From Sulfuriferula sp. (GTDB taxonomy: Bacteria > Pseudomonadota > Gammaproteobacteria > Burkholderiales > Sulfuriferulaceae), in assembly GCA_013140765.1 (NCBI GenBank), contig JABFSE010000010.1, positions 62,001 through 126,000 of the forward strand: a stretch of DNA of 64,000 bases. The letters run 5' to 3'. How positions within the stretch are numbered: position 1 is the first letter of the stretch; the number at the start of each line of letters is the position of its first letter. The notes beneath the pieces were generated by a model. The model was not told the origin of the DNA. It did not search any database and worked only from the letters and a program-made list of their open reading frames with translations. The position numbers and the translations under genes are program-made. Below are positions 38,723-45,197 of this stretch, piece by piece.

Positions 38723-40585
38723 CTATAATGTGTCGATACGTTGACCAGCTAAAACCTGCTTGACGCTATTATCCATGCGTTTAGCGGCAAAGTTGCTGGT
38801 GGTTTGATTTAGGGCTTCAGTCGCATCTATGATGACACGATGATTGTCCGCCGCAATGTAGCTTTGTAACTGCGTGATTTCAGCGTTAATTTGTTGTATC
38901 TCTGCGTCGCTCAATAAGCTATCGCCGTTTTCTGCCAACGCGCTATGTATTGCGTCTATGAGTCGTTGCGCTTCTACGCGGGCTTCTTGCAGAGCGCGTA
39001 ACTGCATATCCAGGCTGGCGTTTTCGTTCGATGATTTAAGCATTTTGGTAATGTCATCATCAGATAAACCATAGGCTGGTTTGACTACGATGGTGGCTTG
39101 CACACCGCTTTTGAGTTCTTCTGCCGATACCGACAGCAAGCCGTCCGCATCAACCTGAAAAGTTACGCGAATACGCGCCGCACCTGCCACCATAGGCGGT
39201 ATGCCGCGCAATTCAAATTTAGCCAGTGAGCGGCAATCGCTGACTAATTCACGTTCACCTTGCACCAGATGTATGCTCATTGCAGTTTGACCATCTTTAT
39301 AAGTGGTGAACTCTTGAGCGCGACCTGCGGGGATGGTGGTATTGCGTGGAATGATTTTTTCTGCCAAGCCACCCATCGTTTCTATGCCTAAAGACAATGG
39401 GATCACATCTAACAATAGCCAATCATCTGCCGCGCGATTACCTGCCAGCACATTGGCCTGGATTGCCGCGCCGAGTGCGACCACTTTATCAGGGTCAAGA
39501 TTAGTTAAAGGTGCTTGCTGAAAAAACTCAGCCACTGCCGACTGTATGCGCGGCATACGGGTAGAGCCACCAACCATCACCACACCCTTGACATCCTCCA
39601 CCGTCAATCCTGCGTCACGCAAGGCTTTACGCGTGGGTGACAAAGTTTTATTGACCAAGCTCGCGGTAATTTCGTTAAAAATAGCGGTAGTGAGTTCTAA
39701 GTTAATCATTTCGCCTGAGGCTAATAATGCGCTGATATTTACCTGCGTATGGTCGGTCAGTGTTTCCTTAGCCGCTCGTGCTTTAGTCAGTAACAAACGC
39801 GTATCGCCTGCGGTTAAAATCGGAAATTTAGCCTGTTCTAACACCCAGCAATAAATTCTATGGTCAAAATCATCACCACCCAATGCCGCGTCGCCATTGG
39901 TTGCCAAGACTTCAAACACGCCTTGCGACAAGCGTAAAATAGAAATATCAAACGTGCCGCCACCCAAGTCAAACACGGCGTAAACACCTTCGCTGGCATT
40001 ATCCAAACCGTAAGCGATTGCCGCCGCAGTGGGTTCATTGAGCAAGCGCAATACGTTTAAGCCTGCAAATTTTGCCGCGTCTTTGGTCGCTTGACGTTGT
40101 GCATCATCAAAATACGCAGGCACGGTAATCACCGCGCCGACTAATTCGCCACCCAGCGAACGTTCGGCACGATCGCGCAACACCCGCAAAATATCGGCAG
40201 ACACGGCTACAGGGCTTTTTACCCCCGCGCAAGTTTTCAACTGCACCATACCAGGCGCATCGACAAACTGATAAGGAAAGCTGGCGGCATCGACAATATC
40301 AGCCAAACCACGCCCCATGAAACGCTTAATGGAAACCAGCGTATTATGCGGGTCTGCGCTTTGTAAGGCGAGTGCGGCATAACCGACAGTAACGGTTTGG
40401 TCGGCTTGATAATGAACCACAGATGGCAGTAATGCCCTACCATCTTCATCATTGAGCACCACTGCCACGCCATTACGCACGCTGGCTACTAGTGAATTTG
40501 TTGTACCCAAGTCTATCCCCACCGCCAATCTGTGTTGGTGCGGCGCAGTGCTCATACCTGGCTCTGAAATTTGCAATAATGCCAT
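38723..40585 (-). CDS. hscA: HscA, Hsp70-type chaperone for Fe-S transfer
   Basis: A 620-residue Hsp70 homologue. The nucleotide-binding domain begins [12 protein letters not shown], with [14 protein letters not shown] and [13 protein letters not shown] further on; the substrate-binding domain follows from about residue 390. With HscB it releases Fe-S clusters from IscU to acceptors. Length matches the family. It is three bases after hscB. Confidence 0.95.
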
Positions 40586-40588
40586 GCG

Positions 40589-41122
40589 TTAAACGTCCAT
40601 TGCTGCATAAGCGTCGTCGATTTCGCTCATGATTTTTTCTATGAATTTAAGTTGGCGCACGTTGTCTGTCGCCGCACGCCAATCTTGCTGTTGATCTAAT
40701 TGTGTTAATAATTGCTCACGCCAGCGTTTGCCATGCGTCGCTACGTCGGCTTCTACTTGTTGCAAAGCGGTCATGTCGGCAGCTTGTTGCGCGTCTTGTA
40801 TTGCCTCGCGCCAGTCAATTTGTTGCATCAAAAACGCCATAGGTAATTGTGTATTGGTTTGCGCCAATGCCTCTATGCCGTGTAATTGTAGTAAATAAAT
40901 AGCACGATTTAGCGGTGATTTTAAGGTTTGATAGGCTTCATTTACGCGGGTGGACCATTGCATGGAAACGCGCTTTTCAGCATCCGATAAATGGGCAAAT
41001 TTATCAGGGTGAACTTGATTTTGCAGGCTACGGAAAGTGGCATCTAACGCCGCATTATCTAATTCATAACGCGGTGTCAGCCCAAATAATTCAAAATGAT
41101 TTTGGTGGAAATCGAGTGCCAT
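40589..41122 (-). CDS. hscB: HscB, J-domain co-chaperone
   Basis: A 177-residue co-chaperone with an N-terminal J domain (HPD at residues 38-40) and a C-terminal three-helix HscB domain from about residue 90. It delivers IscU to HscA and stimulates its ATPase. It is 15 bases after iscA. Confidence 0.93.
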   Translation of the reverse strand: MALDFHQNHFELFGLTPRYELDNAALDATFRSLQNQVHPDKFAHLSDAEKRVSMQWSTRVNEAYQTLKSPLNRAIYLLQLHGIEALAQTNTQLPMAFLMQQIDWREAIQDAQQAADMTALQQVEADVATHGKRWREQLLTQLDQQQDWRAATDNVRQLKFIEKIMSEIDDAYAAMDV

Positions 41123-41137
41123 TCGTTAAATCAAATA

Positions 41138-41461
41138 CTAAACGTTAAAACTCTCGCCACAACCGCAGGCATCTTTGACGTTAGGGTTATTAAATTTGAA
41201 GCCTTCGTTAAGCCCTTCCCGTGTGAAATCCAGCTCCATACCATCAATATAAGGCAGGCTTTTCGGATCAACAATCACGGTTACGCCGAATTGTTCAAAC
41301 GTTAAATCATCGTCATCCAGCACATCGGCGAATTCCAGCTTATAAGCCATCCCCGAACAACCGCTGGTACGCACGCCTAAGCGCAAACCCACGCCTTTGC
41401 CGCGTTTAACAAGGAAATTAGCAATATGCTTGGCCGCACTCTCGGTCACTGTAATCGTCAT
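41138..41461 (-). CDS. iscA: IscA, A-type Fe-S carrier
   Basis: A 107-residue A-type carrier with the three conserved cysteines: one in [10 protein letters not shown] and two in DACGCGE near the C-terminus. It binds iron or clusters and passes them to target proteins. It is 18 bases after iscU. Confidence 0.93.
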
Positions 41462-41479: not shown

Positions 41480-41875
41480 CTAATGCGCACTCACAGCACC
41501 ATGTTTGGCTTTGTAATCATCGACAGCCGCTTTAATTGCGTCTTCAGCCAAAATTGAACAGTGGATTTTAACAGGCGGCAAGGCTAATTCTTCTGCGATA
41601 GCCGTGTTTTTGATTTCCATTGCTTGGTCTAGTGTCTTGCCTTTAACCCACTCGGTCACTAATGAGCTAGATGCAATCGCTGAACCGCAACCGTAAGTCT
41701 TAAATTTAGCATCTTCGATAATGCCATCTTTATTGACTTTGATTTGTAGTTTCATGACGTCGCCGCAAGCAGGCGCGCCAACCATGCCTGTGCCGACTTC
41801 ATCATCATCTTTTGCAAATGAACCCACATTACGTGGATTTTCGTAGTGGTCTAAAACTTTATCGCTGTATGCCAT
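41480..41875 (-). CDS. iscU: IscU, Fe-S scaffold protein
   Basis: A 131-residue scaffold with the three conserved cysteines in PACGD, YGCGSAIASS and KIHCSILAE, plus the Asp next to the first. It receives sulfur from IscS and assembles [2Fe-2S] and [4Fe-4S] clusters. The ATG encoding MAYSDKVLDHYENPRN is the family start and has AGGAG nine bases upstream; a longer in-frame start (41908) would overlap iscS and is rejected. Confidence 0.95.
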   Translation of the reverse strand: MAYSDKVLDHYENPRNVGSFAKDDDEVGTGMVGAPACGDVMKLQIKVNKDGIIEDAKFKTYGCGSAIASSSLVTEWVKGKTLDQAMEIKNTAIAEELALPPVKIHCSILAEDAIKAAVDDYKAKHGAVSAH

Positions 41876-41892
41876 GATATTTCTCCTAAAAT

Positions 41893-43104
41893 TTAGTGCG
41901 CGGCCCATTTAACGGTGTTCAAATCTATACCGTCTTGGAACATTTCCCACAAAGGTGACAACTCGCGCAGCTTGCCGATTTTTTGATGTAACAATTCAAT
42001 TGCGTAATCCACATCTTGTTCAGTGGTGTAACGACCGATAGAGAAGCGGATAGAGCTGTGCGCTAATTCATCTGAACGCCCCAGTGCCCGCAATACATAT
42101 GAAGGCTCTAAGCTCGCTGAAGTACATGCAGAACCTGACGACACGGCCAAGTCTTTAATTGCCATCAACAAGGATTCGCCTTCAACAAAATTGAAGCTGA
42201 TATTCAGATTGTGCGGCACGCGTTTTTCCATGTCACCGTTGATATGGACTTCTTCGATGTCAGATAAACCTGTTAATAAACGATCACGTAAGGCACGAAT
42301 ACGCACGTTTTCAACCGCCATTTCTTCACGCGCAATACGGAAAGCCTCGCCCATGCCGACGATTTGATGCGTTGCCAACGTACCTGAACGCATACCGCGC
42401 TCGTGACCGCCGCCGTGCATTTGCGCTTCTATACGCACACGCGGTTTGCGACGTACATACAACGCACCTACACCTTTAGGGCCGTAAGTTTTATGTGCTG
42501 AAAACGACATTAAATCGACTTTCAATTTACTCAAATCTATCTCGATTTTACCTGTAGCTTGCGCCGCATCCACATGAAAAATAATGCCTTTTTCACGGCA
42601 AATTTCGCCAATAGCCGCAATATCTTGTATGACACCGATTTCATTATTGACTAACAATATCGAAATAACGATGGTATCAGGACGAATAGCTGCTTTTAAT
42701 TTTTCTATATCCAGCAAACCGTCCGATTCAGGCGTGAGGTAGCTGACTTCATAACCTTCACGCTCTAATTCGCGCATCGTATCCAGCGTCGCTTTGTGTT
42801 CAGTTTGCAAGGTAATCAAATGCTTACCTTTGCCTTTATAGAAATGCGCTGAACCTTTAATGGCTAAATTGATAGATTCCGTCGCGCCTGAAGTCCATAC
42901 GATTTCTTTAGCATCGGCATTGACTAAGGCCGCAACCTGTTCACGCGCGGTTTCTACCGCTTTATCTGCTTCCCAGCCAAAATAATGTGAACGACTGGCT
43001 GGATTGCCGTATTGTTCAGTTAAATACGGTATCATTTTTGCGGCAACCCGCGCATCCACTGGGGTTGTTGCTGAATAATCCAAATAAATCGGTTTGTCTA
43101 ACAT
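41893..43104 (-). CDS. iscS: IscS, cysteine desulfurase
   Basis: A 403-residue PLP enzyme that takes sulfur from cysteine as a persulfide. The PLP lysine is K205 in [10 protein letters not shown], and the active-site cysteine is C327 in [12 protein letters not shown], on a loop typical of group I desulfurases. It feeds IscU and tRNA thiolation. It is 15 bases after iscR. Confidence 0.95.
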
Positions 43105-43119
43105 GCTTTACTCCAAAAA

Positions 43120-43590
43120 TTAAGCGGCTATCGCTTTATCACTTTTCACGCGGCAATCATCCATCACTGCCACATTTGCTAATTTTGCCTGTTGTTGCTG
43201 AACCAAACTCGCCAGCGTCACGGTGGTTAAATAATCTTGTATGCAGGCATTCAGGTTATGCCATAAATCATGTGTCATACAACGACCGTCATCTTTACAA
43301 TTTTGCTTACCTGCGCATTGCGTTGCGTCTAAAGGCTCATCTACTGCTTGCACAATTTGCGCAACCGAAATATCAACCAAAGCACGTGCAACGCGATAAC
43401 CGCCGCCTGGGCCACGCACACTGTCCACTAACTCACGGCGGCGCAATTTACCAAACAATTGCTCTAAATACGATAGCGAAATTTTTTGTCGCTCGCTAAT
43501 AGCCGCCAAGGTCACAGGACCTTGTTCATGATTTAATGCTAAATCTATCATTGCAGTTACTGCAAATCGTCCTTTAGTCGTTAAGCGCAT
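43120..43590 (-). CDS. iscR: IscR, Fe-S-sensing Rrf2-family repressor
   Basis: A 156-residue Rrf2 regulator with an N-terminal winged helix (residues 1-65) and the [2Fe-2S] ligands C92, C98, C104 and probably H107. Holo-IscR represses its own operon through type 1 sites, and such a site lies just upstream (43629-43653). It is the first gene of the isc operon, so the system is autoregulated. Confidence 0.95.
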   Translation of the reverse strand: MRLTTKGRFAVTAMIDLALNHEQGPVTLAAISERQKISLSYLEQLFGKLRRRELVDSVRGPGGGYRVARALVDISVAQIVQAVDEPLDATQCAGKQNCKDDGRCMTHDLWHNLNACIQDYLTTVTLASLVQQQQAKLANVAVMDDCRVKSDKAIAA

Positions 43591-43653
43591 TGTCCAACCT
43601 CTCTACGTTACGTGGGTTGGACAATACAATACCCGATAAATTCAGTCAACTAT
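43590..43653 (-). promoter_or_regulatory. iscR promoter with IscR type 1 site and a second dyad
   Basis: On the minus strand, -35 TTGACT (43644-43649) and -10 TATTGT (43621-43626) are 17 bases apart. A stretch matching the E. coli IscR type 1 consensus at 23 of 25 positions covers 43629-43653 and overlaps the -35. A separate perfect 10-bp inverted repeat, TTGTCCAACC/GGTTGGACAA (43590-43599 and 43615-43624), overlaps the -10 and reaches the start codon. The type 1 site overlaps the end of cysE. Confidence 0.85.
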
Positions 43654-44394
43654 TTTATTTAAGTATGCCGCGTCAAATTCAGCCGCTTGCGACGCGGGGC
43701 AAGTTGTTTCTACACCCAAGGCTTGCAGTTGTGTCACTATCCACGTAATACGCTCATCCATATCAACAGAATGATCAATTAAGCCGTGCATCGCCTTAAC
43801 CATAGGGTCGTTCATGTCAGCACTAATCGCATACGCGGTAAAGCCTAACTTCTTAACGGTCGTGCCTGTTTCGTCAGCGGGTGCATCAGTCAATATCCGT
43901 GCGGGTATGCCCACCGCTGTCGCACCTGCTGGCACATCTTTCACCACGACGGCATTTGAGCCGATTTTTGCATTCGCACCCACTGTCAGTGGGCCGAGTA
44001 TTTTTGCGCCTGCGCCGACGACAACACCGTTTTCTAATGTCGGATGACGCTTGCCTTTATTCCATGACGTACCGCCTAGCGTTACCTGATGATAAAGCGT
44101 GCAATCATCACCGATAACCGCCGTTTCGCCTATCACCACGCCCATGCCGTGATCAATAAAAACACGCCGCCCAATTTGTGCGCCTGGGTGTATTTCTATC
44201 CCTGTCGCCCAGCGACCAAAATAGGCAGTAAATCGCGCCAGCCATTTCCAATCCCAACGCCAGAATCTAGCTGCCAGCCTATGCAACAAAATCGCATGTA
44301 TGCCAGGATAAGTGGTCAACACCTCCCACACTGACCGCGCCGCTGGGTCACGGTCAAATACAACAGCGACATCTTCACGTAATTGTTTTAACAC
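43642..44394 (-). CDS. cysE: Serine O-acetyltransferase CysE
   Basis: A 250-residue hexapeptide-repeat acetyltransferase that makes O-acetylserine for cysteine synthesis. It carries the left-handed beta-helix motifs ([23 protein letters not shown] and following) and catalytic His/Asp residues in FIDHG. It is next to iscR on the same strand, and its promoter carries a match to an IscR type 1 site, so cysteine supply and Fe-S assembly seem to share control. Confidence 0.95.
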
Positions 44395-44435: not shown

Positions 44436-44468
44436 ATTATGCAATACCCGACTAATTTAGTCAAGTTT
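44436..44468 (-). promoter_or_regulatory. cysE promoter overlapped by an IscR type 1 site
   Basis: On the minus strand, -35 TTGACT (44459-44464) and -10 CATAAT (44436-44441) are 17 bases apart. The type 1 IscR consensus is matched at 24 of 25 positions over 44444-44468, overlapping the -35 and spacer, as at the iscR promoter. It lies in the last codons of trmJ. Confidence 0.85.
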
Positions 44469-45197
44469 TGTCGCTTCATTGATTTGCGCTGGATGGCGAA
44501 TTAACTTCACCATACCCATGAGGATATTTAGCTCCTCTTTTTCTAACTGCGCACGCGAATATAAACGCCTGAAACGCGTCATTAAGCGTCGTGGGGCAGC
44601 TAAGTTTAAGAAACCTATAGCAATCAAAGATTGCTCTAATTCCTGATAAAAACGTTCCAAATCTTCGTGTTTCGCCAGCTCTACAGCTGCTGCGGCTGGC
44701 ATATCGACTAATGCGCTACGCAATTCGTAGCATAAAATCTGCACCGCAGAAGCCAGATTCAGCGAGCTATAATCAGGATTGGCAGGAATATGCACCAGCA
44801 TCTGGCATTGTTCTAATTCAGCATTGGTCAAGCCTGACATTTCGGTGCCAAAAACCAACGCCACAGGATTATGTTGTGCGTGCGCCATTAACATCGGGGC
44901 TAATTCACGCGCACTCACCATTTTATGCGACAAATCTCGCCGCCGCGCAGTACAGCCAACAACCAGCGTCGCACCTTGCAACGCGCTGGCTAAATCCACC
45001 GTCACTTGTGCGGCATCCAGCACATCAGTAGAGCCCGCGCACATCGCAATAGCAACAGGGTCAGGGAACTGCTTGGGCGACACCAAACGCAAATCATGCA
45101 CGCCCATGGTTTTCATGGCGCGTGCCGCCGAGCCTATATTGCCAGGATGGCTGGTGTGACTTAATACAATACGAACATTATTTAACGAGGCTAACAT
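44457..45197 (-). CDS. trmJ: tRNA (cytidine/uridine-2'-O) methyltransferase TrmJ
   Basis: A 246-residue SPOUT-class RNA methyltransferase. The N-terminal NVRIVLSHTSHPGNIGSAARAM and the knot motif FGTEMSGLTNAELEQCQ are characteristic. It methylates position 32 of several tRNAs. It is divergent from suhB. Its 3' end holds the cysE promoter. Confidence 0.92.
   Translation of the reverse strand: MLASLNNVRIVLSHTSHPGNIGSAARAMKTMGVHDLRLVSPKQFPDPVAIAMCAGSTDVLDAAQVTVDLASALQGATLVVGCTARRRDLSHKMVSARELAPMLMAHAQHNPVALVFGTEMSGLTNAELEQCQMLVHIPANPDYSSLNLASAVQILCYELRSALVDMPAAAAVELAKHEDLERFYQELEQSLIAIGFLNLAAPRRLMTRFRRLYSRAQLEKEELNILMGMVKLIRHPAQINEATKLD

Follow-up and report, generated by a model that had tools for sequence, protein, structure and literature searches.

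A predicted IscR type 1 operator in the promoter of cysE at the head of an isc gene cluster in Sulfuriferula sp.

The cysE promoter and its IscR site

The window analyzed here is a stretch of 64,000 nucleotides from Sulfuriferula sp. (contig JABFSE010000010.1, positions 62,001 to 126,000). On its minus strand cysE, the gene of serine O-acetyltransferase, lies directly upstream of iscR, the gene of the iron-sulfur cluster regulator IscR, and the promoter of cysE contains a near-perfect IscR type 1 site. The site is very likely functional, to judge from its sequence and its conservation. It is interpreted as an operator within a sigma-70 promoter at which holo-IscR would repress cysE, with derepression when clusters are short; the probability of this interpretation is estimated at about 85%. 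The features concerned are the following.

44444..44468, minus strand: IscR type 1 site upstream of cysE, AAACTTGACTAAATTAGTCGGGTAT; 24 of 25 consensus positions, matrix score 32.2, conserved in the genus alignment
44459..44464, minus strand: -35 hexamer TTGACT of the cysE promoter, within the IscR site; promoter scan
44436..44441, minus strand: -10 hexamer CATAAT of the cysE promoter, spacer of 17; promoter scan and conserved -10 columns in 64 aligned loci
43642..44394, minus strand: cysE, serine O-acetyltransferase, GTG start; TIGR01172 at 7.1e-76, EpsC model NF041874 above its cut-off
43629..43653, minus strand: second IscR type 1 site, upstream of iscR, ATAGTTGACTGAATTTATCGGGTAT; 23 of 25 positions, overlapping the cysE stop codon
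43621..43649, minus strand: iscR promoter TTGACT-17-TATTGT, with the -35 hexamer inside the iscR site; 9 of 12 positions
43120..43590, minus strand: iscR; TIGR02010 at 1.8e-64, above cut-off

The type 1 consensus, ATASYYGACTRWWWYAGTCRRSTAT, was taken as printed in PMC3899308. AAACTTGACTAAATTAGTCGGGTAT departs from it only at position 2. The site covers the -35 hexamer and the spacer of the promoter TTGACT-17-CATAAT, which agrees with the promoter consensus at 10 of 12 positions; the interval named in an earlier sequence-only reading of this DNA, 44436-44468, additionally includes the -10 hexamer. That reading had described the site as near-perfect and as overlapping -35 and spacer in the manner of the iscR site, and both descriptions hold. 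The promoter match is weak by itself, since the scan of the region yielded three promoter-like sites against a mean of 1.8 in shuffled sequence. The IscR site is rare. When up to three mismatches are allowed, the window contains only the sites of cysE and iscR, compared with a mean of 0.00 in 100 dinucleotide shuffles, and the whole genome (2,175,092 bases) contains four matches, compared with none for the reversed control pattern.

Aligned to E. coli IscR, the IscR of the window retains E43 and the four cluster ligands C92, C98, C104 and H107. CysE scores 253.7 bits against TIGR01172 (cut-off 210.65) and is the sole strong serine acetyltransferase match in its genome, the runner-up reaching 6.5e-7. 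Four genomes of the same genus (G008, G012, G014, G015) each have another CysE-like match, at 2e-70 or better.

That IscR might activate cysE, or that apo-IscR rather than holo-IscR might act there, is highly unlikely. A site lying over the -35 hexamer and the spacer occupies the position of repression at the P. aeruginosa isc promoter, and E43, reported in PMC3899308 to bar apo-IscR from type 1 sites, is present in the IscR of the window.

The gene cluster behind cysE

Further genes on the minus strand place cysE at the head of a cluster for iron-sulfur cluster assembly.

44457..45197, minus strand: trmJ family methyltransferase; TIGR00050 at 7e-69, above cut-off
41893..43104, minus strand: iscS; TIGR02006 at 1.1e-222
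41480..41908, minus strand: iscU (open reading frame; the iscU model begins at residue 14); TIGR01999 at 2.4e-69
41138..41461, minus strand: iscA; TIGR02011 at 7.6e-53
40589..41122, minus strand: hscB; NF002935 at 2.4e-66
38723..40585, minus strand: hscA; TIGR01991 at 6.6e-268

The gene order is thus trmJ, cysE, iscR, iscS, iscU, iscA, hscB, hscA. The trmJ product reaches 251.6 bits with the TrmJ model NF011694, under its cut-off of 280, and the last three codons of trmJ together with its stop codon form the first 12 bases of the cysE IscR site. The iscR site and promoter lie 815 bases downstream of the cysE site. About 50 bases separate cysE from iscR, and a search of the minus strand of that interval revealed no terminator-like site, so that the cysE site may serve the whole cysE-iscRSUA unit. 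The sequence-only reading predicted that holo-IscR represses serine O-acetyltransferase. The type 1 site behind this prediction has gained strong comparative support (see below), with repression as the expected effect, but cysE does not stand apart as a distant target: it directly precedes iscR. The wording of that reading left out the position of cysE at the head of the isc cluster, which may make its control one aspect of isc autoregulation. cysE is best understood as the leading gene of a cluster under IscR autoregulation.

Search for the site in related genomes

The cysE loci compared with the window came from several sources: the best 80 of a scan of named genomes, 29 further loci from relatives, 18 more matching genomes, and 92 matching genomes, other than the window's own, of a sample of the phylum, one of which (G048) was shared with the 18. 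Twelve other matching genomes of relatives, with weak, short or truncated matches, lie outside the sample. The 80 named loci were assigned to the order group by record titles alone. The phylum sample was taken in two parts, 43 genomes first and 49 second; the first 170 loci, including the window, were reduced to 164 by removal of duplicates, and in the second part two loci with adjacent iscR (L248, L260) were excluded because their upstream sequence was too short. A matrix was trained on 92 distinct iscR-upstream sites of the order group, one site per locus, the best, with 20 or more of 25 positions matching, and the window excluded. No cysE-upstream site entered the training. The 200 bases that precede each cysE were then scored with the matrix at a threshold of 7.3, the 99.9th percentile of 3280 shuffled regions. 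The cysE site of the window scores 32.2, a value reached by none of the shuffled regions, whose maximum was 8.75. Real-sequence controls above the threshold were likewise absent: 0 of 164 cysE interiors, 0 of 134 stretches upstream of iscS and 0 of 120 trmJ interiors.

Conservation of the cysE site in relatives follows the adjacency of cysE to iscR. Within the order of the source organism an above-threshold site precedes cysE in 64 of 109 loci with adjacent iscR and in 2 of 15 without. Outside the class the corresponding counts are 14 of 17 and 0 of 7 in the first part of the sample, whose 24 loci were weighted towards higher-ranking matches, and 12 of 26 and 0 of 21 in the second, giving 26 of 43 and 0 of 28 for both parts. 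The fall from 14/17 to 26/43 is due to one large family, f64, which has the site only upstream of iscR: it accounts for all 14 adjacent misses of the second part, each with an iscR-upstream site, and is represented in the first part by locus L161. In the outside-class families other than f64 the cysE site is found in 26 of 28 adjacent loci. In the genus, 12 of 15 relatives exceed the threshold. Among cultivable relatives, Thiobacillus thioparus DSM 505 (L018) carries both sites, that of cysE scoring 31.4, and the cysE site of Novimethylophilus kurashikiensis (L058) stays under the threshold. The sequence-only reading had proposed a search upstream of cysE in related genomes, and the site was found there in the order, in the genus and outside the class. 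Its view that IscR control extends to cysteine biosynthesis in this lineage is too narrow in distribution: the site is spread through the order and is found outside the class too, where it is the sole site of a cysE-iscR unit.

Several observations weigh against the operator interpretation. Within the order, 45 of the 109 loci with adjacent iscR have no above-threshold cysE site, and in the other orders of the class none was found upstream of cysE in 13 adjacent and 3 non-adjacent loci. The family f64 outside the class lacks it in all 15 adjacent loci, where the site precedes iscR instead. Three of the 15 relatives in the genus (L100, L101, L103) fall under the threshold. Moreover, relatives are not independent samples, so that the locus counts are not probabilities. 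Finally, if CysE is the only serine acetyltransferase of the cell, strong repression would risk cysteine shortage, which suggests that repression is partial or that an additional promoter contributes.

In two outside-class loci (L163, L165) an alignment of IscR revealed proline or serine in place of C98, the other ligands being retained. The cysE-upstream site is present in both loci despite the replacement.

What the conserved site does

TTGACT nearly matches the -35 consensus and at the same time belongs to the IscR motif, and the element could in principle be an ordinary constitutive promoter whose -35 hexamer resembles half of the motif, with no control by IscR. This is the least probable of the explanations considered, with hardly any weight left to it. 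In the first 164 loci the place of the site was chosen by its left arm alone and the right arm, which is not part of the promoter consensus, was then scored. It exceeded the 99th percentile of the null in 67 of 109 adjacent loci of the order and in 14 of 17 adjacent loci outside the class; in the remaining groups it did so in 1 of 15 (order, not adjacent), 1 of 7 (outside the class, not adjacent) and 0 of 13 and 0 of 3 (other orders, adjacent and not adjacent). A bare -35 hexamer does not explain this conservation of the right arm, and chance resemblance was rejected, in line with the failure of any shuffled region to attain the score of the window.

Conservation of the 3' coding end of trmJ was likewise rejected as a cause. 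In an alignment of 16 sequences from the genus, the window and its 15 relatives, the site and the -10 hexamer form the main conserved block of the trmJ-cysE interval, and this block is constant whereas its distances to the trmJ stop codon and the cysE start codon vary. In the 64 aligned positive loci the -10 columns are conserved, although they were not used for selection, and the flanks are near background.

More serious is the possibility that the cysE site mainly serves the isc genes as a distal second isc promoter, with cysE carried along and with little effect on cysteine flux. The short interval between cysE and iscR, in which no terminator-like site was found, would allow this, and so would the rarity of the cysE site where iscR is not adjacent. 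Outside the class it is the only site in 26 of 43 adjacent loci, and the median gap between cysE and iscR is -4 in the 14 of these loci in which it was measured. In the order, however, 64 loci keep both sites, so that iscR already has a promoter of its own, and one genome of the order (G027) retains a strong cysE site (29.0) while carrying iscR on a separate contig. A role mainly in isc expression is possible but doubtful, and an operator that controls cysE itself is preferred.

Such an operator would act as follows. Transcription from the cysE promoter would cover cysE and probably continue into iscRSUA-hscBA. Under an ample supply of [2Fe-2S] clusters, holo-IscR would bind over the -35 hexamer and the spacer and repress transcription. 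Cluster shortage, caused by iron limitation or oxidants, would derepress the cysE and the iscR promoters alike, and the sole strong serine O-acetyltransferase match of the genome would increase together with the cysteine-consuming IscS. IscS takes sulfur from cysteine, so that the cell must supply cysteine when cluster assembly accelerates. An IscR operator on the gene of the committed step would thus let cluster status feed forward directly to cysteine supply.

Promoter layouts

The combinations of sites at adjacent loci differ among the groups. In the order, both sites are present in 64 loci, the iscR site only in 44 and neither in 1; in the other orders of the class, the iscR site only in 12 and neither in 1; outside the class, the cysE site only in 26, the iscR site only in 16, neither in 1 and both in none. 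iscS then follows in all 17 adjacent loci of the first outside-class part and is also present in the 26 adjacent loci scored in the second. At loci with a cysE site and no other, cysE must share in IscR autoregulation, provided that the site works.

Three layouts emerge. In the first, found in most families outside the class, a single cysE site heads a cysE-iscR unit. In the second, that of the order to which the window belongs, sites precede both cysE and iscR. In the third, the iscR site stands alone, as in the other orders of the class and in one family outside it. It is somewhat more plausible than not that these layouts represent a widespread wiring by which IscR controls the supply of the cysteine precursor, with the first two inducing the supply of sulfur donor jointly with cluster assembly, opposite to the logic of the small RNA that acts on E. 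coli cysE. The pattern among relatives, in which the site is present or absent and promoters number one or two, offers natural experiments for testing the value of the link.

Other type 1 matches in the genome

Of the four genomic matches, three precede cysE, iscR and grxD, which encodes a Grx4-type glutaredoxin, and one, at an unassigned locus, lies between a CbbQ-type ATPase cluster and an open reading frame of 107 residues. The grxD site (L002 1501-1525; C28:26246-26270 in the genome of the window) is immediately upstream of the glutaredoxin gene, whose product matches TIGR00365 at 2.3e-43; matching sites beside grxD occur in six more genomes of the genus (G004, G008, G012, G013, G014, G015). 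The fourth site (L004 1501-1525, L216 5943-5967; C28:42942-42966), with a matrix score of 31.3, is identical in all 25 bases in the genome of the window and in five relatives of the genus, and the intergenic stretch around it is likewise conserved. It is flanked on one side by an open reading frame of 137 residues and the CbbQ-type ATPase and on the other by the 107-residue frame; neither frame is matched by Pfam or NCBIfam at 0.001. The site is a candidate for a new IscR target.

Comparison with known systems

The closest parallel is the autoregulation of isc in E. coli and, through sites A and B, in P. aeruginosa, with which the window has in common the 25-base motif, its position over -35 and spacer, the regulator and the cluster ligands. 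According to PMC3899308 and PMC6599224, IscR represses the isc operon of P. aeruginosa, the iscR promoter has been mapped to TTGACC-18-CATAAT, and site B, ATAGTTGACCTAATTACTCGGATAA, has been footprinted; the geometry in the window is nearly the same. In the window, by contrast, the promoter stands before cysE, and a second site and promoter precede iscR. The P. aeruginosa isc papers PMC6599224, PMC3899308 and PMC11559095 do not contain the word cysE.

A connection between IscR and cysE has been considered before, as it is here. In a Yersinia study the type I motif was searched upstream of iscRSUA, cysE, erpA and nfuA, and chromatin immunoprecipitation left predicted type I sites without significant peaks, as stated in PMC8262890. 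The idea of IscR at cysE is therefore not wholly new. Beyond that search, no statement of an IscR-cysE link was found in the openly licensed papers searched, which were represented mainly by titles and the openings of abstracts.

In E. coli K-12 a match of 20 of 25 positions lies about 160 bases upstream of cysE, in the 3' end of gpsA (L118 2223-2247). The matrix gives it 18.1 on the strand opposite cysE and 8.0, barely above 7.3, on the cysE strand. In the same genome the matrix yields 32.4 and 27.9 at iscR, 24.6 at nfuA and 16.2 near erpA; the nfuA match is also stronger on the opposite strand (24.6 versus 9.3). erpA and nfuA are type 1 targets in E. coli, in agreement with the genes searched in Yersinia. 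E. coli cysE follows secB-gpsA, far from isc, whereas cysE in the window adjoins iscR.

The small RNA RyhB likewise ties cysE to iron status: it represses the translation of cysE in E. coli, according to PMC12889586. The sign is opposite. RyhB lowers E. coli cysE under iron limitation, whereas relief of IscR repression in the bacterium of the window would raise it.
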